Source of the DNA: Microvenator marinus
GTDB taxonomy: Bacteria; Myxococcota_A; Bradymonadia; Bradymonadales; Bradymonadaceae
Direction of reading: 5' to 3'
NCBI RefSeq assembly: GCF_007993755.1
Contig: NZ_CP042467.1
Location: 2,752,001-2,816,000, forward strand
Length of the DNA: 64,000 nucleotides
In this document: positions 44,332-56,053 of the stretch, one piece after another
Layout: each line of letters starts with the position of its first letter
Numbering within the stretch: position 1 is the stretch's first letter
Notes under the pieces: model-generated
What the model saw: only the letters and a program-made list of their open reading frames with translations
Database searches by the model: none
What the model was told of the DNA's origin: nothing
Position numbers and translations under genes: made by a program

Positions 44332-45264
44332 TCATTGGAAGGTCCAGTGAAATTGCACGGTCTCTTGATCGATATCAAATCCAATCCTTGGCCAGTAGCT
44401 TTTCTCGGTTTCACGGAAAAAATCGTCGGATAGTTTCTGGTTGATTCGCCCGGAATCCACGACGGCGTTGACGACATTCCCGACCCAAAAACCGGCGGTG
44501 ATACTCCCGAGCACCACTGTCCATGGGATAGATTCCCAACGGTCCCAGGTGTACCAGGTCAAGGCTCCGAAGCCGCCGGTCAGAACCAGAGAGAGACCCG
44601 CGTCGATCCACCGGCCGTTATAGGCCTGACCTGCTCCTGGAAGCACGGCCGACATGGTGCCGGCCAGCCACGGGGTCTTGAAAGGAAGCTCATCATAAGC
44701 CTGGCGACGCGCGACGAGCTCTAGTGCGCGTGTCCTGAGTTCAGCGTCCGAAATCTGCACGACTTGGGACTCGACGAGCGCCTCGGCTCGCATCACTGCG
44801 GTCAAAGAGCGCAAGTAGAGGATCAGCGGACGTCTCTCGGACTTTGGGTTTTGCTCGAGCACCTTAGAGAGCCCCATATCACATTCGCTCCACGCTCCGG
44901 CGCCCACACAGAGTTCCTGAAGCGCGAGAAGTGTGGCCCACTCTGCCGACTCACCGCCCATCACATTAGAAGCGTTGATGAAGTTCTCAAACGCAAGTCT
45001 TGGCTGCTGATTCCGACTGTAGATTTGGCCGATCATCAAGGGCCCAAGGCTCAAAGAGAGCGAGGTATCGTCCAGCACCATCCAGCGCTTCAGCGATGTA
45101 ATGGCGCGATAATCGTCCGCCTCCCCATAGAGTCTTAGTGCAATCTGGATTTCGATGGTGGCGAGCTCTTCGCGCACACTCTCGAAGGTCTGTACTTCGG
45201 GAGTTTGGCTAAATCCGGTGTCGCAAAGAAGGCAGGCTAGAATGAAGAGCCAGGCTCGTCTCAC
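44332..45264 (-). CDS. Secreted/membrane protein with helical repeats and C-terminal TM region
   Basis: 310 residues. A signal peptide MRRAWLFILACLLCDTGFS precedes TPR-like helices (about 30-160). A glycine-rich hydrophobic region LPGAGQAYNGRWIDAGLSLV follows. This matches the DUF5683/YxeA-like motif in which a small inner-membrane segment with PGxGQxY is followed by two TM helices. The start is GTG and overlaps the stop of the pentapeptide gene (GTGA). Function unknown; the PG.GQ.Y pattern occurs in proteins from Bacteroidota and Myxococcota. Confidence 0.78.
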   Translation of the reverse strand: MRRAWLFILACLLCDTGFSQTPEVQTFESVREELATIEIQIALRLYGEADDYRAITSLKRWMVLDDTSLSLSLGPLMIGQIYSRNQQPRLAFENFINASNVMGGESAEWATLLALQELCVGAGAWSECDMGLSKVLEQNPKSERRPLILYLRSLTAVMRAEALVESQVVQISDAELRTRALELVARRQAYDELPFKTPWLAGTMSAVLPGAGQAYNGRWIDAGLSLVLTGGFGALTWYTWDRWESIPWTVVLGSITAGFWVGNVVNAVVDSGRINQKLSDDFFRETEKSYWPRIGFDIDQETVQFHWTFQ

Positions 45265-47234
45265 TCCTCTTCCTCTTTGGCCTCTTCCTCTTTATCCACG
45301 TCATCTTTAGGTTTTGTCACTTGGCTTTTGGCGATTTCCTCGAGCTTTGAGACATCTGGCGCGGTCGGCTCTGAGTGTGTGGCATCTTGGGCCTTAGGAA
45401 TCGCCGGTGGCGACATCGCTGATATCTCGTCGCTGCTAAGCTCCACGGTAGGCTCACGCTTCCGAAGCGGGGTCGGAACACCTGTTCCCGGCAAGGTTTT
45501 GGCCGACCCTTCGATCTCGGGCTTATTGATCTTTAGCCCTGACTCACTGGACTCCTTGAGGCTCCCAGGCTTCGGAAGCTTAGCCAACGAAGCCGGGACG
45601 CTCTTTGCCCCCATCGCCTCACTGGCCTTTTTTGCAGCCGGCGATTTATTGCCCGTGGCGATCGCCGCGAGCTCGGAGATATCCGTGAGCGATGATTGTT
45701 CGTTGTAGCGCTGCGAGGGCAACTCTGGATGCGCAGGTGCCTCTTCCGCAGCGTTTTTCGGCGGTTGAATGCCGTCAGGCCAACGCGTGAGCAGGTCGTA
45801 GCGAACCTCTTCGAAACGTGCTCCGTCAAATTGCGCATGGGTCAAATCCACGTCGCTCAGGTCACATCGCACAAAGAGGGTATTTCTGAAGCTCGCCTTT
45901 CCAACCTTTGCTTCCTTGAAGTTCACACTCTCAAGGCGTGCGCCGTCAAAGGAGGCATCAGTCAAAGCGGCATGCGAAAAGTCCACATCGGAGAGTTGCG
46001 CCTGTGTGAAGTCGGCCCCTTGCCCACTGGCAGACTGCCCCTGAACGTTGCTCAGATGAGCGCCTCGTAGGTCGGCCGCGTCAAAATTGACGGAGTTTAG
46101 CGTGACACCGTTGAGTTGAGCTCGCTCAAGCACTGCCTTCGAAAGCTTTCCGCCCTGAATATCGGCCCCATCAAGCGTAGCGCCCCTCAAATCGGCTTCT
46201 CTAAGATCGGTGCCCGTCAGACGGACTCCGGAGAGGTTCGAGTCTTTGAGCACAGCTTTCAAGAGCGTTGCGCCACTGAGGACTGTATGAGTCAGATCGA
46301 GTCCGCTCATCGACGCACCGCTTAGGTCTGCGCCTTCGAAATCAGCTCGGTCCAAGGTCGCGCCACTCAAGTTTGCCCCAGACCATTTGGCACCGGCCGC
46401 AAGGATTCCCTCGAGCAGAGCGCCTGAGAAATCCGCTCCGTGCGCGGCTGACCCGGTCATATTGGCGTCGAGGCATTGCGCGCCGCGGAGCATCGCTTTT
46501 GAGAAGTTTGCGTCGTTGGCCTTCGCCCCTTTGAGCTGGGTGCCTTTGAGCTTCGCGCCCACGAAGCTCGCCTCTTTGATATCAGCACCGCTCAGGTCCG
46601 CACCTTCGAGGTCGGCATCATCAAAGCTTACGCCTCTAAGGTTCGTCTCTTGAAGTGAGACCCCGCTCAGCTCGGCCCCACGAAACGAGGCTCCTTCAAG
46701 GATTGCGCCCTGAAGGGTTGCATGACGCAAGTTCGCGCCGTCAAGAATCGCTTGGCCGAGTTCGGCGCCGCTAAGATTCGCCTTTTCAAGGTTGGCGCCC
46801 ACAAGCCGAGCCTCGCTCAAATCGGATCCGCTGAGATCTGCCCCTTCAAAATTGGCTTCGTCCAAGTTAATCCCCTGAAGTTTAACGTACTTCAGGGTAA
46901 CGCCGGCGAGTTGGGCGCGTGCCATGGAACCGCCTGAGGTGGCTGCCGCTGTTGGAGGGATGGTTTTGGGCCGCGATTGGGGTGGCTCAGTAGCCAGAAC
47001 TCGGGGCTCGGGCCGAAATTCGGCCTGAGGGAGAGCCGGTGCCGCATTCAAGGCAGCAGTGAGCTTCTGGAGCTCCGAAAAGCCGAACGCGAGCCCCATT
47101 CCAAGAACGAGGTAGAGAATCTGTTTGACGGCGTCAGGCAAAGGCATAAAGCCGATGATGACGATGATCCCCAGACTAAAAAGCGTGGCGATCGCGGCGC
47201 CACCAAGAATCGTAAGGACTCGTTGGTTGGTCAT
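45261..47234 (-). CDS. Membrane-anchored long pentapeptide-repeat protein
   Basis: 657 residues. Two N-terminal TM helices (about residues 8-30 and 38-55) and a Pro/Ala linker are followed by about 375 residues of uninterrupted pentapeptides of the A(D/N)LxG type (about residues 105-485; SGADLSG, LRGANL, LEGADLS). The protein ends in an acidic, Ser/Pro-rich tail. The repeats should form a right-handed quadrilateral beta-helix of about 18 turns. Long helices like this can mimic DNA or organise membrane partners. Neither function is proven here. It shares a set with a TPR/membrane protein (overlapping), DUF2200 and an upstream small membrane protein. Confidence 0.88.
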   Translation of the reverse strand: MTNQRVLTILGGAAIATLFSLGIIVIIGFMPLPDAVKQILYLVLGMGLAFGFSELQKLTAALNAAPALPQAEFRPEPRVLATEPPQSRPKTIPPTAAATSGGSMARAQLAGVTLKYVKLQGINLDEANFEGADLSGSDLSEARLVGANLEKANLSGAELGQAILDGANLRHATLQGAILEGASFRGAELSGVSLQETNLRGVSFDDADLEGADLSGADIKEASFVGAKLKGTQLKGAKANDANFSKAMLRGAQCLDANMTGSAAHGADFSGALLEGILAAGAKWSGANLSGATLDRADFEGADLSGASMSGLDLTHTVLSGATLLKAVLKDSNLSGVRLTGTDLREADLRGATLDGADIQGGKLSKAVLERAQLNGVTLNSVNFDAADLRGAHLSNVQGQSASGQGADFTQAQLSDVDFSHAALTDASFDGARLESVNFKEAKVGKASFRNTLFVRCDLSDVDLTHAQFDGARFEEVRYDLLTRWPDGIQPPKNAAEEAPAHPELPSQRYNEQSSLTDISELAAIATGNKSPAAKKASEAMGAKSVPASLAKLPKPGSLKESSESGLKINKPEIEGSAKTLPGTGVPTPLRKREPTVELSSDEISAMSPPAIPKAQDATHSEPTAPDVSKLEEIAKSQVTKPKDDVDKEEEAKEEEE

Positions 47235-48314: not shown

Positions 48315-48451
48315 TATTTCGGGCATATTGGTGCGTGCGATTCGCAAAATGACACCCAATTGTAACAAAGCGTTCTATTGAACCTGCGTATCGAATCTGC
48401 TACCTCTTCGCCCGCCATAGATGATGAACCTGAACCAATTTTGAGGTCCCC
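48315..48451. promoter_or_regulatory. Intergenic region upstream of the envelope cluster
   Basis: 137 bases precede the first gene of the six-gene secreted cluster. TTGAAC (48378-48383) and TACCTC (48401-48406) are 17 bases apart and are the best promoter-like pair, but the -10 is poor. An AGG 6-8 nt before the ATG at 48452 is a weak SD. I see no terminator for yaeQ. Confidence 0.3.
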
Positions 48452-49411
48452 ATGTTTTTTGCTCGACGTTCACTTTTGATTTTAGCAGCTGGTCTCGCCA
48501 TTTCGGCCTGTGGAGACGCTGACGATCCAACCAAAAACGGAAATAACACCGATCCAAACAACGTGACGAATCCTAATAATTCGAACAACGAGTCGAATAA
48601 CGGAACGGTTGTGGACCCGAACAACACAACGATTGATCCGAACAATCCGACCAATAACAACACGACCGAGCCAAACAATCCTCCGATCGAGTGCGAGGTT
48701 CTTGAGAACTTCTACGGCCAGATTGGCGGCACAGGCGACGCGGGCGGTGGTGCTCCAACGATGGAAGCGCTCGATTACGACGCCAATCTCCAGGCTGTCT
48801 ACGATTCGGTCCCTACCACTCAGGACGACACAGAGACCGAGGACGTCGATGAAGGCCGTGCTGACGACCTGACCATTGAAGTCACCGGTGCTCTCGTGAC
48901 TTCGACCTACGGCGGAAACGTGAGCAACACTCGCTTCTTCCTTCAAGACCAGAACACCGCAATCCGCGTGTTCCTTGATCAAGGCGAGCAGCAAGCGACC
49001 CCAATCAAAGTCGGCCAGCGTTTGAGCTTCACAGTGACCTCGACACGTAACTTCAGTGGAACACCGCAGATCGCTAAGATCAGCGACCTCGTGGTCGACG
49101 AAGAAGGCGCAAACGTTCCTTACGCCGAAGCGACTGGAACCGATCTTACAATTGAGCAGTTTGATCGCATTGTTCGCGTATTCGGCACCATTGAGTCGGA
49201 CAACGGCGAATGTGGTGGTGGAAACAAGTGCTACACGTTCAACCACGGCGATAAGACCACCACATTGCGTTCACGTTCGACGTTCCTTTCGGTTGGCGGA
49301 TGCTACACCTACGTTGGTCCCGTCGGGGCATTCCCTGGCCCATTGGCAACCGGCGACAAGACCATTCAGCTTGACTCGGTCAACTTCGATTGGTTGTTCG
49401 AACTGCGCTAA
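48452..49411 (+). CDS. OB-fold-like lipoprotein with Asn-rich linker
   Basis: 319 residues. The leader MFFARRSLLILAAGLAISAC has a lipobox with Cys20. An Asn/Pro/Thr-rich linker of about 45 residues follows (PNNVTNPNNSNNESNN pattern). A beta-barrel-like domain comes next (about residues 140-235): DDLTIEVTGALVTSTY, RFFLQDQNTAIRVFLD, VGQRLSFTVTSTRNFSGTPQI. This pattern (V..A.V....G...FFLQD....I.V.....) matches OB-fold modules such as YhcR_OBF and those found in extracellular nucleases. The C-terminal 80 residues carry a Cys pair and another beta domain. First gene of a six-gene set; gaps to the next are short. Confidence 0.75.
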   Translation: MFFARRSLLILAAGLAISACGDADDPTKNGNNTDPNNVTNPNNSNNESNNGTVVDPNNTTIDPNNPTNNNTTEPNNPPIECEVLENFYGQIGGTGDAGGGAPTMEALDYDANLQAVYDSVPTTQDDTETEDVDEGRADDLTIEVTGALVTSTYGGNVSNTRFFLQDQNTAIRVFLDQGEQQATPIKVGQRLSFTVTSTRNFSGTPQIAKISDLVVDEEGANVPYAEATGTDLTIEQFDRIVRVFGTIESDNGECGGGNKCYTFNHGDKTTTLRSRSTFLSVGGCYTYVGPVGAFPGPLATGDKTIQLDSVNFDWLFELR

Positions 49412-49440
49412 TCCGTCCCTCGCCGCTCTGAAGAGTGAAC

Positions 49441-50448
49441 ATGTCTCTCCACATTTTGTCCTCACGGGGCTTCCAACCCGTACTCGTTGCCCTCGCGCTC
49501 TTCATGAGCGCGTGTGGTGAGCCGTCCGACCCCCCGAGCGATGCTGAGCGCGCGCGTATTTTAGGTGATGCGGAGATCGTGTTCGTCGAGGAGAAGGTGG
49601 ATTTCACCGACGAGCAATATGACTTCACGGGCCCAACGTCGATTCAAGCCCTCAAGAGCATCATCCCACCGAACGAATTCGTCTGGTACGGCACGAGCCC
49701 TGGCGATCCTCCTCCTTTCGAGGAGGAGGCAAACGGCGTTTACAAGTGTGGCTCGCGAAATCAAATTCGCGAGGTCTCGCAACTCCCAGCGACGATTGAA
49801 GGGATCATCACGCTCCAGCCACGCTACTTCCAGCGCACGGTTTATTGCGATTCTGATGAGCGCTTCTACGGAAGTTATTTCATCGAGGATTCAACGGGCG
49901 GCATCATGGTTTTGAAGGAATCCCGTATCGAGGATTTCTACATGGGAGACCGAGTGCGCCTGCGCGTGCGAGGCCTGGTCAAGTACTTCGATACCATCGC
50001 GGTCTTGGTGTCTGACGAAGAAGAAGTTATCTCAGAAGACAACCCTATCTACTATCGCAACACGAGCCGCGAGCTCGAGGAAGAGGACGCCTACGAGGTG
50101 CACCGAATCCGCAAGAAAGTGGCGTCGTTGCCCACAAATCAGAACTTCAATGAGATGTGTCTTATTGACGTGGACAACCCAGACCTCGATAGTTGCCGAA
50201 AGCCCTGTGCCTTCAACAACGATTGTGAGTCGGGGACGTGCGATTTTGGAAATAGCCAAAACGCTGTGGCCGGCTATTGCACGACGGATGAGGGTGAGTG
50301 GCTGGTCTCGCTCGACCGCGAAATCGGTCAACGCCAACCACGAATCATCAGTCGCGGGGATATTTTGGAAGTTACAGGGCCGGTGGTGAACTCCTTCGGG
50401 CTTAAGATATTGGTATCGCGCGCAGGCCAGATGCGCTTCGTCGAATAA
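49441..50448 (+). CDS. OB-fold-like lipoprotein with Cys-rich insert
   Basis: 335 residues from the ATG 5 nt after GAAGAG; a GTG two codons upstream is possible. The leader ends in the lipobox MSAC. The first domain (about residues 100-190) has LPATIEGIITLQPRYF, RFYGSYFIEDSTGGIMVL and GDRVRLRVRGLVKYFDT, which again fits an OB-like fold. A short disulfide-type module follows (DNPDLDSCRKPCAFNNDCESG). A second OB-like segment ends the chain (RGDILEVTGPVVNSFGLKILV). It is a paralogue in architecture, though not in close sequence, of the preceding lipoprotein, from which it is separated by 29 nt. Confidence 0.72.
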   Translation: MSLHILSSRGFQPVLVALALFMSACGEPSDPPSDAERARILGDAEIVFVEEKVDFTDEQYDFTGPTSIQALKSIIPPNEFVWYGTSPGDPPPFEEEANGVYKCGSRNQIREVSQLPATIEGIITLQPRYFQRTVYCDSDERFYGSYFIEDSTGGIMVLKESRIEDFYMGDRVRLRVRGLVKYFDTIAVLVSDEEEVISEDNPIYYRNTSRELEEEDAYEVHRIRKKVASLPTNQNFNEMCLIDVDNPDLDSCRKPCAFNNDCESGTCDFGNSQNAVAGYCTTDEGEWLVSLDREIGQRQPRIISRGDILEVTGPVVNSFGLKILVSRAGQMRFVE

Positions 50449-50483
50449 GTTTTTGAGAAACGTTACTCAGTAGGTTTAGAAAG

Positions 50484-52175
50484 ATGAAATCACGTTTGTT
50501 GAGTCTCGCTGGCTTCGCAGCGGTATTGACCGGGTTGCAACCTGGAATTCTCGTGGCTCAGGAAGATCCGGAAGTGGATATCGAGCCATCGTATGTGGAG
50601 CCAGACCCAGCTCAGGACTCCGCGGTTGCAACCATGCCGCTCGCCGAGGCTCCGGAGTTGGAAGAGGAGAAGTTCCAAGTGTTCTTCTCACTCTCGACTG
50701 AGTTCGTTGCTACGGACAATCAGGACTATCGCGATTACGAGCCTACTCAGCCTGAGCCGTGGATCGATATCTACGACACCGACGACCGCGCGAATATCTT
50801 CTACACGCGCGTCTCGTCTGGTTTTGGCTACCAGGTTTTGGATGATGTGGGCGTGCAGCTTTCATTGAGTCACTCCGGCCTTTGGGGCGGGGATAAAATG
50901 GGCGGTGCCAACGCATTTGGCGGCTTCCTCTTCATGGACCGCCTTTTTGTTGAATGGAATGCCGTCAAGTTGCCTGGCGTGGAGATCAGCACCCAGATTG
51001 GACGTCAGCCGTTTGAAATCGGCGGCGCCTATCGCGACTACTTCTTCGACGACGTGATCGACGGTGTGATTGTGGATATCGACCTCAAGAAGGGCGGCAA
51101 AATTCGCCTGCTTCCGGTCGACCTTTACAGCTCAACTTTGAGACCTGACGACGTAAACCTTGCTGCCGGAATTAATTCGGTGGGCACGATTCCTCAATCG
51201 TCTTCGGCGCGCTACGACGGCGATACCAACACGTTCCGAATGGGCGCGATCTATGAGAACACCGAACTGGTCAAAGGCCTCGAGCTTCGCGCCTTCGGGT
51301 TCTATGCGGATATCGGCGCTTCGGGCCCGCTTGGAACCGGCTCCGACCGGACCTTCGGTGGTGCACACGGAAACGTGGCAGACAACGACTATAACTGGAT
51401 GGCAGGAACTCGAATTGGCTACACCATCGATGCGGGCAACTTCAAGATGCTTGCGTACGGTGAGTTCGCGCGCTCCGGCGGTCTCGATCGCAAAGCGACC
51501 AACCTCGGCCTCTTCGATGTGCTGACGGAGGGTAACGCGTTCGGTGCCGGACTTTTGCCAAGCCTGACGGTCAACGAGAACCTCGGTGTTCGTGGTCGCG
51601 TGCAATTCTTCATGGCCGACGGGGCTGACCATGCTGCAGATGGCGGCATGATGTTCAACCACGGCTTCGTGTCCTTCAAGGGCGCTCAGATCGGTGGACT
51701 TGCTGCAAACCGCATCGCGGGCTGGCACCCATCCGCTTATGTTGCAACTGATGGAATCTCGCACGACCCGCATGCGCGCGAGCGTAAAGCAGGGACCATG
51801 GTGATCCACGGAGGAATCGGCCTCGACCTCATTAAGAAGCTTTCGCTCGACGTCGATTTCTACACGTATGCTGATACTTCAGGCACGAACTACGACTTCA
51901 CTCAGGCGATTACGGACTCGGCTGAGCTTCCGTTTGGCTACGATGAATTTGATCTGCGCGCTCAGGAACGCCTCGGCAAAAACCTCGGCTTTGAGCTCGA
52001 TTCGAAGCTCGCGTTCAACCCGAACGACGTGCTTGGCTTCTACGTTGGGGGCGCCGTGATGTTCGCGGGTGACTTCCACAAGATCGAAGTAAGCCGCCGA
52101 GTAGGCACAGCGATCGGTGCAACCGAGCCTGACCTCTTCTGGGCCGTTTCTGCTGGTACCAATCTCACGTTCTAA
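50484..52175 (+). CDS. Outer-membrane beta-barrel (porin-like)
   Basis: 563 residues. A signal peptide ends near LVAQ. A short acidic, Pro-rich plug or linker (about 25-60) leads into repeated amphipathic strands of a beta-barrel: FFSLSTEFVATDNQ, YTRVSSGFGYQV, GVQLSLSHSGLWGG, RLFVEWNAVKLPG. The chain ends in Asn-Leu-Thr-Phe, and a terminal Phe is the usual outer-membrane insertion signal. About 16-18 strands are possible, as in AlgE-type alginate export porins or substrate-specific porins. Cargo is unknown. Position in the middle of the phosphodiesterase-lipoprotein cluster suggests uptake or export linked to it. Confidence 0.78.
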   Translation: MKSRLLSLAGFAAVLTGLQPGILVAQEDPEVDIEPSYVEPDPAQDSAVATMPLAEAPELEEEKFQVFFSLSTEFVATDNQDYRDYEPTQPEPWIDIYDTDDRANIFYTRVSSGFGYQVLDDVGVQLSLSHSGLWGGDKMGGANAFGGFLFMDRLFVEWNAVKLPGVEISTQIGRQPFEIGGAYRDYFFDDVIDGVIVDIDLKKGGKIRLLPVDLYSSTLRPDDVNLAAGINSVGTIPQSSSARYDGDTNTFRMGAIYENTELVKGLELRAFGFYADIGASGPLGTGSDRTFGGAHGNVADNDYNWMAGTRIGYTIDAGNFKMLAYGEFARSGGLDRKATNLGLFDVLTEGNAFGAGLLPSLTVNENLGVRGRVQFFMADGADHAADGGMMFNHGFVSFKGAQIGGLAANRIAGWHPSAYVATDGISHDPHARERKAGTMVIHGGIGLDLIKKLSLDVDFYTYADTSGTNYDFTQAITDSAELPFGYDEFDLRAQERLGKNLGFELDSKLAFNPNDVLGFYVGGAVMFAGDFHKIEVSRRVGTAIGATEPDLFWAVSAGTNLTF

Positions 52176-52185
52176 GGTCCTGATT

Positions 52186-52896
52186 ATGCGTAAGCTCCTA
52201 TTCGCCGCTCTCCTCTTGGGAGCGTGCGACACATCAGACCCGGGGATTCCTGCAAGTCAGCCAGAATATCGCTGGGATTTTGACTCCTGCACATCCGGCG
52301 AGCGGGGAAGTATCACCATTAACGAGGTGAATTTCGCGGGAAGCGTGACCGATGACGGAACGCTTGATGCCGACGATATTTTCATCGAGTTGTGGAATCG
52401 ACACCCTCGGCCGATCAACGTCTCCGGCTGGAGACTCAATGTCTACGGGAAGACTGAGGGTTACGTACCGGACGAAGGGTACCTGATTCCTCAGAACGAC
52501 CGAACCATCCCAGTCAACGGCCATTTTGTGATCGCGAAGAAAGCCGATGGCGCATTTGGCGACATTGCCGACGTGATCATCGAAGACCTTGAGCTTGGAA
52601 AGTCACACTTCTACGTAGAGCTTCGCGATTGCGACCAAAAGCTCATGGAGAGCGCCGGGCATCGAGAGGTTCCGGTGTTCTCAGGTGGATACGATTTCGT
52701 GACATCACGCTCCATGGAGCGCGCACAAATCATTTTCCAGAACCGTGGAACCATGGCCATGAACTGGCATGCGTATTCGGTGGATCTCGGGTCAAACACC
52801 ATTCGTGAAGGCTGGAGAGAGCGCACGCTCGCAAGCCCAGGAATGGCAAATAGCCCGGATTACTCCGGTTCATCAGCCTCGGGAGATTTCGAATGA
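52186..52896 (+). CDS. Lamin-tail-domain (LTD) lipoprotein
   Basis: 236 residues from the ATG with TAAGG 8 nt upstream; it begins just after the barrel gene's stop. Leader MRKLLFAALLLGAC has a lipobox. The single globular part shows the LTD pattern: GSITINEVNF...FIELWNRHPRPINVSGWRLNVYG...GHFVIAKK, and Cys pairs. LTDs are immunoglobulin-like domains; in bacteria they are attached to secreted nucleases and phosphodiesterases, often for DNA or surface binding. No catalytic residues are visible. The stop overlaps the next start by 4 bases (ATGA). Confidence 0.8.
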   Translation: MRKLLFAALLLGACDTSDPGIPASQPEYRWDFDSCTSGERGSITINEVNFAGSVTDDGTLDADDIFIELWNRHPRPINVSGWRLNVYGKTEGYVPDEGYLIPQNDRTIPVNGHFVIAKKADGAFGDIADVIIEDLELGKSHFYVELRDCDQKLMESAGHREVPVFSGGYDFVTSRSMERAQIIFQNRGTMAMNWHAYSVDLGSNTIREGWRERTLASPGMANSPDYSGSSASGDFE

Positions 52897-54185
52897 GAAA
52901 CAGCATCTTAATTCTGCTCATTTCATCTCTCGCCGCGTGTTCGACGGAAGAAGTCACCTATCAGTCGGCGCTTGAGACCAAATCCGAGTTCTTTTTGAAC
53001 CGCGAGGAGGATGCGAGAGCCCGCCTGCTTCAGGAGATTCGCCAAACGCGAGATACAATCGACGTCGCCGCTCAGAGCATGACGGACGTGGAGCTTGCGA
53101 ACGCAATTATCACCGCAGCTAAGGCTGGCGCCAGGGTTCGTATCGTAGGTGACGAAGCCGCGAAATCCGATGACGGATTCTCGCTGCTCGACGATTATCG
53201 CTCCGAGATCCTTTTCGACGACGACGATAATAACGACTCGACCTTCAGCGTGGTCTACGGAAACGGCGAGCTGAGGTATCTACCCGACCCGACGCTTTCG
53301 CCTCTCCTCGACAACTGTGGCTACGCCACAATCGGGGACAAGATTACGTGCCCGAGCTCAGATCCATTGCGTCCGCTCTCGAATCGCCTGATGGTGCGGC
53401 CTGACGAATACAACGTCATGAGCCATAACTTCATCATTCTTGGCGACCGAGTCGTCTGGAATTTCGCATCACCCTTTGACGACGCGTCGACAATCCCGTT
53501 GGCGTGGCGACTTGACGGCGAGATGGTGCGTGAGTCCTTCTGGCGCGAGTTCAATCAGATGCACGCCGGGGTGTTCGCGACCACGCTCTCTATCTACAAC
53601 GGCCCAATCAAGTCGGGCGGTCAGTGGTCGCCGATCTACATCACCGAATTCGGTGAGTTCCACATGCGCTTTGGTCCACAAGAACGTGTGATCAAGACGC
53701 TCATCGACGATGCATACAAGTCGCGGGCAAACGTCTGGATCATGACCAATGATCTCAGCGAGCCATTCCTCTTGGATGCACTCGATTACAAGAAGCGAAA
53801 CAACTTCGACGTGCGCGTGATCGTCAACCGTGACGAACAAAACGACGAGCTGGTCGGACGCCTCATCGACTTGGACGCTCGCTACGCCCCAGCCTCTCTC
53901 GACTATGTTCCGACGATGGTGGTGGTGGACTCCGAGCCCAATAGGCTTGGTGAGGTGGAGAAGCGCCGCATTCACGTGATTTCACACCCCGTGTGGAAAA
54001 CCGGTGCGTTCCAAACCTTCCCGAGCACTCCAAACGATTACGTTGAAATCTACAAGAGTGATTACTTCACCGACGGCCTGATGTGGTCGGTGGTGGCGTA
54101 TCCAGGGCAAGAGAACGTGATTTTGGATCAGATGAAACGACTTTGGGAAACCACATGGGCAGCGTCCACGGAGGTCGAACTATGA
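52893..54185 (+). CDS. Phospholipase D-fold lipoprotein with both HKD motifs degenerate
   Basis: 430 residues, leader with lipobox SLAAC. It follows the two-lobe PLD layout (DTIDVAAQSMTDVELANAIITAA, KAGARVRIVGDEAAK in lobe one; a second lobe near residues 270-430). The HxK(x)4D motifs are lost: lobe one has H178-N-F180 with D185, so Lys is Phe; lobe two has V339-P-T341 with D346, so both His and Lys are gone. It is therefore probably a pseudoenzyme. The gene is translationally coupled to an intact PLD that begins at the ATG overlapping its stop. A regulatory or binding role for its active neighbour is likely (inference). Confidence 0.78.
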   Translation: MRNSILILLISSLAACSTEEVTYQSALETKSEFFLNREEDARARLLQEIRQTRDTIDVAAQSMTDVELANAIITAAKAGARVRIVGDEAAKSDDGFSLLDDYRSEILFDDDDNNDSTFSVVYGNGELRYLPDPTLSPLLDNCGYATIGDKITCPSSDPLRPLSNRLMVRPDEYNVMSHNFIILGDRVVWNFASPFDDASTIPLAWRLDGEMVRESFWREFNQMHAGVFATTLSIYNGPIKSGGQWSPIYITEFGEFHMRFGPQERVIKTLIDDAYKSRANVWIMTNDLSEPFLLDALDYKKRNNFDVRVIVNRDEQNDELVGRLIDLDARYAPASLDYVPTMVVVDSEPNRLGEVEKRRIHVISHPVWKTGAFQTFPSTPNDYVEIYKSDYFTDGLMWSVVAYPGQENVILDQMKRLWETTWAASTEVEL

Positions 54186-56053
54186 ACATCTCTAAGATGA
54201 TTCTCGCGCTCGGTGCTCTAGGTGTTTTGGTCAGCGGTTGTAACGACCCGGGCACCGATTATCTGGACCTCTTTACCGAACCTCGTGTTCAGATCTTTTT
54301 CAACGAGCCCGGCTCACGTGCCGAGGGTCAGCGAAATCTGAACCACGAAGATATTCTGGTGGAGCGCATCAATGCTGCAAAAACCTCGGTATCGGCCGCA
54401 CTCTATGGTTTCTCGTCTCAACCTGTGCGTGACGCTCTGGTTCAGGCCCACCTTCGCGGTGTGAATGTGCGAGTTGCAGGTGATGCCAAGCACTTCCTTG
54501 GCCACGATTCGGGCTTTGAGGAGCTTCAGAAGCACCACGTCCCCATGCAGGTGGGCAACCAGTGGCATATTCAGCACAACAAGTTCTTCGTTATCGACAC
54601 CAAGATCGTGTTTGTCGGTACAGGCAATATCAGCCCCACTGACCTCCACCGCAACAAGAACAACTGGGTGATCATCAATCACGATTATATCGCTCAGGAT
54701 TACCAGGACGAGTTCGACCAGATGTTCGAAGGACGCTTCACCGCGTCCAAGCTTCGAAATGGGAACCCGAACTTCTACACAGTTGGCGACACCAAAGTTG
54801 AGGTCTATTTCTCACCGCAGGAAGATGCGATGGGACGAATCCTCGAGGAGCTTGAGGCTGCCGAGAACGACATCCACTTCACCATTTTCGCGTTCACCAA
54901 AGACCAGGTTGGCTCGCGATTTGTGGATAAGCATCGAGAATTCCAGGCGTGGAATGAGGAGAACGGCCAGGCCGACCTTCCTCCTTTCACTATCGACGAT
55001 TCTCCAATGCAGCAGAAAAAGGTTGTTGGCGTTTACGACCGCAGCCAGATTCACGGTAACTTCCTCTATCACGAAGTCTATCGCCTGAACTCGAGAGGCA
55101 TCCCTTCGAGAATGGATGCGAACGAGAACTCGCGTCTACCCGGCGATTATCAAGCAGGTGGTGGTCGCCTTCACTCGAAGACGATGATTATCGATATGTT
55201 CGGTGACAACCCGCGGGTTATCACGGGGTCGTTCAACTGGTCTGCTGCTGCAACGCTCTCAAACGACGAGACCATGTTGATCTTCCATGGTCGTCGTGTG
55301 GCCGAGGAATACTATCGTGAATTCCAAAACATGTGGGGTGGCGGCAAGCAAACTGGGCAAGCTGTCTGCAATATCATGGACGGCTACGTCGAAACGGGTA
55401 GTCCACTCTGCAGCACGGATATCGAACCTGGCGATCTGATTATCAGCGAGGTGATGTGGGATGGTTGGAATGGTCTGATCGACCCGTCTGACCGCACGGG
55501 AACTCGCGATCCGATTGATAACGACGAGTTCTTCGAGATCTACAATGCAACCGATGAGCCTATCAATCTTTCACTCTTCACGCTCAATAGCGCGTACGAT
55601 GCGAAGATGGGCTTTACTCCGGGCACCGTGATTATGCCGGGCGAGTACTTCCTTGTCTTGGACCACAACCTCGTGACCTACTCGGACAATAGCCCTCAGA
55701 ACGGCCAGCACGCCTACAACTCTCCGGATTTCGTGGTCAATATCCCGAACGACCCGCGGATGCCTCGTCTGAATCTGCCGAACTCGAGCATGTACCTTGA
55801 ACTTCGAGATGCCAATGGTCGCGTGATCGACCGAGTTGGCGACGGTGGTCCTCCGTTTGGTGGTGGTCGTCGTGGTGATGGGTCAGGAATCGTGAACTAT
55901 TCGATGGAACGCATCATTCGAAACGGTGATGGTGGCGACGGAACACAACGTAGTAGTTGGAAGACGTCCAATGCCCCACAAGGTGGAGAGCGCGTCAACG
56001 AAGAGTTCCGCGACATCATCATCGCGACTCCTGGCGAGCCAAACTCTCAATAG
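54182..56053 (+). CDS. Active-site-intact phospholipase D/nuclease lipoprotein with C-terminal LTD
   Basis: 623 residues. Start is the ATG overlapping the stop of the pseudo-PLD gene; leader ends in VLVSGC (lipobox). Lobe one carries the intact HKD motif H132-x-K134-x4-D139 (QHNKFFVID), with GTGNIS behind it. Lobe two carries H331-x-K333-x4-D338 (LHSKTMIID) with TGSFNWS behind. Family knowledge: such PLD-fold enzymes cleave phosphodiesters; bacterial members include Nuc endonuclease and phospholipases. An LTD follows (about residues 415-560; DLIISEVMWDG, DNDEFFEIYNATDEPINLS). The C-terminus is Gly-rich. Substrate (DNA or lipid) is not determined. Last gene of the cluster and convergent with the stress-protein gene, 16 nt away. 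Confidence 0.87.
   Translation: MNISKMILALGALGVLVSGCNDPGTDYLDLFTEPRVQIFFNEPGSRAEGQRNLNHEDILVERINAAKTSVSAALYGFSSQPVRDALVQAHLRGVNVRVAGDAKHFLGHDSGFEELQKHHVPMQVGNQWHIQHNKFFVIDTKIVFVGTGNISPTDLHRNKNNWVIINHDYIAQDYQDEFDQMFEGRFTASKLRNGNPNFYTVGDTKVEVYFSPQEDAMGRILEELEAAENDIHFTIFAFTKDQVGSRFVDKHREFQAWNEENGQADLPPFTIDDSPMQQKKVVGVYDRSQIHGNFLYHEVYRLNSRGIPSRMDANENSRLPGDYQAGGGRLHSKTMIIDMFGDNPRVITGSFNWSAAATLSNDETMLIFHGRRVAEEYYREFQNMWGGGKQTGQAVCNIMDGYVETGSPLCSTDIEPGDLIISEVMWDGWNGLIDPSDRTGTRDPIDNDEFFEIYNATDEPINLSLFTLNSAYDAKMGFTPGTVIMPGEYFLVLDHNLVTYSDNSPQNGQHAYNSPDFVVNIPNDPRMPRLNLPNSSMYLELRDANGRVIDRVGDGGPPFGGGRRGDGSGIVNYSMERIIRNGDGGDGTQRSSWKTSNAPQGGERVNEEFRDIIIATPGEPNSQ

Follow-up and report, generated by a model that had tools for sequence, protein, structure and literature searches.

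The window considered here, 64 kb of the single-contig 5.85 Mb genome of Microvenator marinus, contains six open reading frames (A to F) between positions 48452 and 56053, all on the + strand, which are called as five lipoproteins and one outer-membrane barrel. Gene A (48452-49411) encodes an OB-fold-related lipoprotein of 319 aa with an Asn-rich linker after the lipobox Cys; it is followed by B (49441-50448), a DUF5689/DUF5818-like tandem OB-fold lipoprotein of 335 aa, and by C (50484-52175), an 18-stranded outer-membrane beta-barrel of 563 aa. Gene D (52186-52896, with its ATG at 52186) encodes an LTD lipoprotein of 236 aa, E (52893-54185) a catalytically dead PLD-fold lipoprotein of 430 aa and F (54182-56053) a lipoprotein of 623 aa, predicted to be a PLD-fold phosphodiesterase with two HKD motifs and a C-terminal LTD. 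The first-pass annotation had described six consecutive same-strand genes with ATGA couplings, a terminal Phe on the barrel and lipoboxes on the other five proteins. The genes are indeed arranged in this way, the D/E and E/F joins are ATGA overlaps, and the terminal Phe of C recurs in all 14 orthologues that were aligned. The lipoboxes call for a distinction: a signal peptide and lipobox Cys start A, B, D, E and F in the window, but several orthologues of E, those of Lujinxingia included, have no lipobox, so that lipidation cannot be regarded as a conserved property of E.

A promoter-like motif, TTGAAC-N17-TAC, is found 74 nt upstream of A (48378-48403, + strand) and follows a pattern shared with orthologous clusters: TTGA[AC]N-N17-TA[GC] occurs 5' of A in 8 of the 11 clusters compared (shuffles: mean 0.075, maximum 2/11), this pattern having been picked post hoc and being absent from the strict consensus scan. 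The motif common to the regions 5' of A is thus sigma-70-promoter-like, and the site scan gave no promoter- or terminator-like sites above chance inside the cluster. Taken with the ATGA overlaps, these observations make A to F look like one operon. No starvation-type regulatory motif was evident upstream of A, where the sigma-70-like motif is found instead, and no sign of regulation by phosphate starvation or of induction on contact was seen. Outside the cluster, the - strand at 45261-47234 encodes, upstream of yaeQ, a protein of 657 aa that starts with a hydrophobic N-terminal segment, contains numerous pentapeptide repeats and has an acidic tail.

Conservation and inheritance of the gene set

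The first-pass annotation treated the six genes as a single system, and they proved to be conserved together at the level of the order, the class and the phylum. Within the order, every one of the 26 genomes gave an F match (E <= 0.001), nearly all of them having a close orthologue, and A to F are collinear wherever contigs permit. Barrel C is present in 33 of the 57 class genomes, and the fetched members of class families f3 and f6 show an identical set in identical order. In the phylum sample, 61 of 380 genomes encode C, and the set was present in all 20 loci that were fetched, as far as the contig reaches, B and C being separated by a 2.7 kb insert in one of them.

Scanning the genome collection with a single F sequence gave no match, and the F alignment as query gave 66 named loci. 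Fifty-six of these contain close relatives of F (Lujinxingia vulgaris, Lujinxingiaceae, Bradymonadaceae and many delta-proteobacterial or Myxococcota MAGs) and have the cluster in the same order and on the same strand within the available sequence; the ten others, from other phyla (Chitinophagaceae, Synechococcus and others), encode distant F homologues of 24-30% identity that stand alone. Where contigs are long enough, the B-F order holds throughout Myxococcota, in at least nine families, and no counterexample was seen among the 56 named Myxococcota loci. As the same order and strand recur in 56/56 Myxococcota loci, and also in the order, class and phylum samples, a chance origin of the A-F gene order is rejected. 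Gene A is absent or unrecognisable in seven loci of the collection scan; some lineages are thus without a recognisable A, and the constant core is B-C-D-E-F, usually preceded by A. Three MAGs titled Klebsiella pneumoniae (L138, L153 and L162; CAMAXZ010000001.1, CAMCWU010000190.1 and CAMASI010000027.1) carry the Myxococcota operon, and these titles are probably mislabelled records.

Trees of C, E, F and their concatenation agree with the host classification and recover the class as one clade (22/22, support 1.0), so inheritance of the operon has been mostly vertical. The flanking genes, compared by all-against-all BLAST, are lineage-specific and not conserved. The largest groups in that comparison were antisense shadows inside the operon; the true neighbours, read by eye, resemble dnaX in some Bradymonadales and an FAD-linked oxidase elsewhere, again according to lineage.

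The encoded proteins and their candidate substrates

The model of C (pLDDT 72.3) has 18 long strands and matches AlgE (Foldseek E 2e-14; VIA Z 23.8, 357 residues, rmsd 3.4), the next-best VIA matches being OprD/Occ porins at Z 19-22, in keeping with the outer-membrane barrel recognised in the first pass. Hydrophobic and polar residues alternate in and out in nearly all strands, which supports a membrane barrel. The lumen has conserved inward R252, R269 and R310 facing D190, E267, D302, D335, D464 and E504, and is not net positive. A PDB sequence search with the C profile gave no match, and Pfam Alginate_exp was matched weakly by only 2 of 14 C orthologues (best E 0.006); with no recurring partner genes either, identity with an alginate export system was rejected. 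A domain search of all six proteins gave no TonB-dependent receptor with a plug domain, and SusCD/TonB-dependent uptake was likewise discarded as an identity. One C orthologue (L040:6283-8487) has a long His/Lys/Cys-rich N-terminal extension (KCKKDGKCKKGDKCKK...).

The closest solved relative of C being the alginate exporter AlgE, the operon might export or finish a phosphodiester-containing surface polymer, C acting as the exporter, F as a transferase or trimmer and the OB proteins as glycan binders; OB folds can bind oligosaccharides and PLD enzymes are capable of transphosphatidylation. We regard polymer export as quite improbable, since C matches uptake porins of the OprD family almost as well as it matches AlgE, the sequence relatives of F are nucleases, and no gene family recurs beside the operon across lineages that could serve as a polymer synthesis partner.

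F scores over the Pfam cut-offs for two PLDc_2 domains (E 1e-36) and for LTD (E 6e-12, 46.4 bits against a cut-off of 34.3), and both of its triads, H132/K134/D139 and H331/K333/D338, are invariant in 31 orthologues across the phylum; the intact HKD motifs and the PLD-LTD architecture reported earlier are both confirmed. E also matches PLDc_2 (Pfam E 3e-10) and is homologous to F (hhalign 99.7%). The earlier designation of E as a pseudo-PLD extends beyond the window, as its HKD triads are broken in 20/20 orthologues of the order and in 27/27 rows of the phylum-wide set, and E is thus, judging from these alignments, a conserved dead paralogue of F. D falls just under the Pfam LTD cut-off (PF00932: 31.7 bits, E 2e-7, against 34.3) and is homologous to the LTD of F (hhalign 99.5%, E 9e-23), which confirms the second LTD domain of the original description; a PDB sequence search with the D profile gave no match. 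The genome of the window (G000) has 12 LTD matches, ten of them outside the operon and mostly in long open frames (e.g. C1:2085553, 4811039 and 1014806). In one relative, a further PLD-domain protein, which is also long, is encoded shortly downstream of the operon (G015:C157:9134-9538, at L123).

Searched against the PDB, the F profile matches the Nuc endonuclease (1byr, E 5e-20), MitoPLD/Zucchini and NucT (3e-15), a phospholipase reaching only 5e-6, and when each half is searched alone Nuc and MitoPLD come first. Because both halves match nucleases best, and phospholipases weakly or not at all, nucleic acid is favoured over phospholipid, and the prediction that F is a nuclease of the Nuc/NucT/Zucchini kind is well supported at the sequence level. 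The first pass had proposed degradation of either DNA or phospholipid; the profile matches favour the DNA side of this proposal. Alternatively, F might act on lipids at the surface as a phospholipase D or cardiolipin hydrolase, either to attack prey membranes or to recycle lipids, with C importing the released head groups. Many phospholipases and cardiolipin synthases likewise have two HKD domains in a single chain, several matches carry the name mitochondrial cardiolipin hydrolase, and the Bradymonadales are predators (PMC7460792). We consider lipid hydrolysis improbable, however, as the best matches are nucleases, true phospholipases appear at E 5e-6 or worse, the NCBIfam cardiolipin synthase models score far under cut-off, and OB-fold proteins would have no obvious part in it.

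The first two lipoproteins had been described as OB-fold-like, and both descriptions are upheld. For B, the model consists of tandem OB domains (pLDDT 77.5); its Foldseek matches are mostly ssDNA-binding proteins, with POT1, RPA and SSB on top, and the second aligner, VIA, returned OB domains of tRNA synthetases, CST, MCM and RPA with Z up to 10.7, many rows being tRNA-synthetase and MCM domains. As both aligners return OB folds, the fold of the B model is firm, and nucleic acid as its ligand is only likely. OB folds bind sugars and proteins too, oligosaccharides included. DUF5689/DUF5818 were weakly matched in Pfam by 10-11 of 12 B orthologues, with 10 of 12 and a best E of 1e-4 for DUF5689, B of the window reaching 14 bits against DUF5689, under the 28.6 cut-off, and a PDB sequence search with the B profile gave no match. 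A alone has no Pfam match; it is homologous to B (hhalign 96.5%, E 7e-10), and one A orthologue has two tandem copies of the module and a weak OB-fold match. In family f6, second A-like OB lipoproteins are encoded near the operon by divergently transcribed genes (L089:11334-12371, L090:2323-3555 and L091:14500-16128). The only domain fusions that could name a substrate are the tandem A modules and the fusion of one B orthologue to about 15 thrombospondin type 3 repeats (L051:6112-9000); such repeats are often found on surface proteins.

The resemblance of B to DUF5689 suggests another possibility, namely that the operon serves natural transformation by taking DNA across the outer membrane: the OB proteins would bind DNA, F would trim or nick it, C would admit the strand and ComEC would act at the inner membrane. 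Riemerella anatipestifer cannot be transformed naturally without a DUF5689 surface protein and an adjacent outer-membrane protein (PMC8459023), NucT contributes modestly to transformation in H. pylori (PMC5714352), and ComEC was found in 49 of the 57 class genomes, that of the window included. But the DUF5689 match of B lies under the Pfam cut-off, long DNA is unlikely to pass through a narrow barrel of the AlgE/OprD type, and ComEC and PilQ are just as common in genomes that lack the operon, so no specific link appears; we judge a role in transformation to be distinctly unlikely.

The Bradymonadales are reported to lack a complete purine pathway (PMC7460792), and links with nutrition were also sought by distribution. 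The presence of purL does not track that of the operon: the genome of the window has purL and the cluster-free family f4 is without it. CNT carriers, 5'-nucleotidase, ComEC and PilQ are near universal and therefore give no discriminating signal. Dependence on purine, competence or nucleoside salvage was thus rejected as a phylogenetic correlation, none of purL, ComEC, CNT, 5'-nucleotidase and PilQ giving a signal.

A possible route for nucleic acid across the outer membrane

As far as can be read from its sequences, the operon probably encodes a system, not described before, that captures extracellular DNA. In the mechanism that we propose, the OB lipoproteins A and B would hold nucleic acid, probably single-stranded, that is extracellular or entering the periplasm, and F, the two-HKD enzyme, would cleave it into pieces. 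E, the dead PLD protein, and the LTD modules present in D and F would serve as a scaffold or as substrate-presenting partners, the AlgE/OprD-like C would let fragments or nucleotides cross the outer membrane, and ordinary periplasmic nucleotidases and inner-membrane nucleoside carriers would complete the process. We give this reading, with capture at the outer membrane, cleavage by F and passage through C, about an even chance of being correct. Homology and fold suggest nucleic acid as the substrate, co-conservation suggests that A to F form a complex, and the system would lie at the surface with C transporting inward, as in the product import first proposed.

Several observations favour the uptake of nucleic-acid fragments: B to F, usually with A, are strictly co-conserved in order and strand while the flanks change; the halves of F are closest to Nuc and MitoPLD/Zucchini, its whole profile matching NucT as well; and the Foldseek matches of B are dominated by ssDNA-binding proteins. 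The LTD of F and the adjoining OB protein recall ExeM and the LTD nuclease of marine DNA degraders, NucT and the Riemerella DUF5689 protein provide precedents, and the thrombospondin type 3 repeats on one B orthologue favour placement at the surface. We also count for it the two CNT nucleoside carriers and the 5'-nucleotidase of the host genome. The same reading is weakened by the range of ligands that OB folds accept, together with the many VIA rows in which B matches OB domains of tRNA synthetases and MCM, by the lumen of C, which is not net positive, by AlgE, which exports rather than imports, the C-type fold serving both directions, and by the single HKD per chain of Nuc and NucT, F having two as in many phospholipases. 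A bolder version seems to us rather unlikely: in it, the paired OB lipoproteins, the active/dead PLD pair and the AlgE-like barrel would form one phylum-wide complex, undescribed so far, by which DNA or large oligonucleotides pass the outer membrane without the type IV pilus secretin, to serve either nutrition or transformation.

A five- to six-gene outer-membrane system that is intact across a whole phylum and has no described function is rare. If nucleic acid is taken up, the operon would constitute a new outer-membrane route for DNA or its fragments, tied to a conserved active/dead PLD pair, and it bears on the feeding of predatory and marine Myxococcota. A cultured carrier exists, Lujinxingia vulgaris, which makes the system directly testable.

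Comparison with known systems

The first pass knew of no described system with this gene order, and our search of the literature on LTD with PLD and the outer membrane (mostly open literature, few subscription papers) likewise found no description; the parts of A to F are known families by sequence and fold, and it is the system itself for which no description was found. The best solved matches of F are Nuc of pKM101 and NucT of H. pylori, the latter a membrane-associated PLD nuclease for which a part in salvaging purines from DNA has been proposed (PMC5714352); both resemble F in their PLD fold, HxK(x)4D motif and export. By contrast, F is a lipoprotein with an LTD and two HKD domains instead of a single one per chain, and its gene shares an operon with those for a dead paralogue, the OB proteins and a barrel.

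ExeM is organised as LTD-YhcR-EEP, and its LTD and OB-like regions are required for full nuclease activity (PMC6085458). The ExeM/Xds enzymes resemble the A-F set in that a phosphodiesterase located outside the cytoplasm is accompanied by LTD and OB-like modules, but in A-F the catalytic domain is PLD and not EEP, the modules are mostly separate lipoproteins, and a dedicated barrel is present. As the domain search found no EEP catalytic domain in any of the six proteins, identity with an ExeM-type nuclease was rejected. Barrel C is 18-stranded like AlgE and OprD/Occ (VIA Z 23.8 and 19-22, respectively) but has only about 10% sequence identity with them, and no alginate genes lie around it.

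In Riemerella anatipestifer, RA0C_RS04915/RA0C_RS04920 offer a similar pairing of an outer-membrane protein with a DUF5689 surface protein, both needed for transformation (PMC8459023), although no PLD or LTD partner is reported there and the homology of B to DUF5689 is weak. The marine DNA degraders Ca. Izemoplasmatales have clustered genes for extracellular DNA breakdown and import, including a protein with nucleic-acid-binding, nuclease and LTD domains, but their gene set is another one, and nothing corresponding to the barrel or to the pair of active and dead PLD proteins appears in the excerpted text of that study (PMC8289736). As A to F fall outside the definitions of ExeM, of alginate export and of TonB-dependent uptake, and in view of the literature search, we rate the operon, from its predicted proteins, as belonging to the extracellular nuclease and uptake kind, with an architecture that appears both unusual and ancient.
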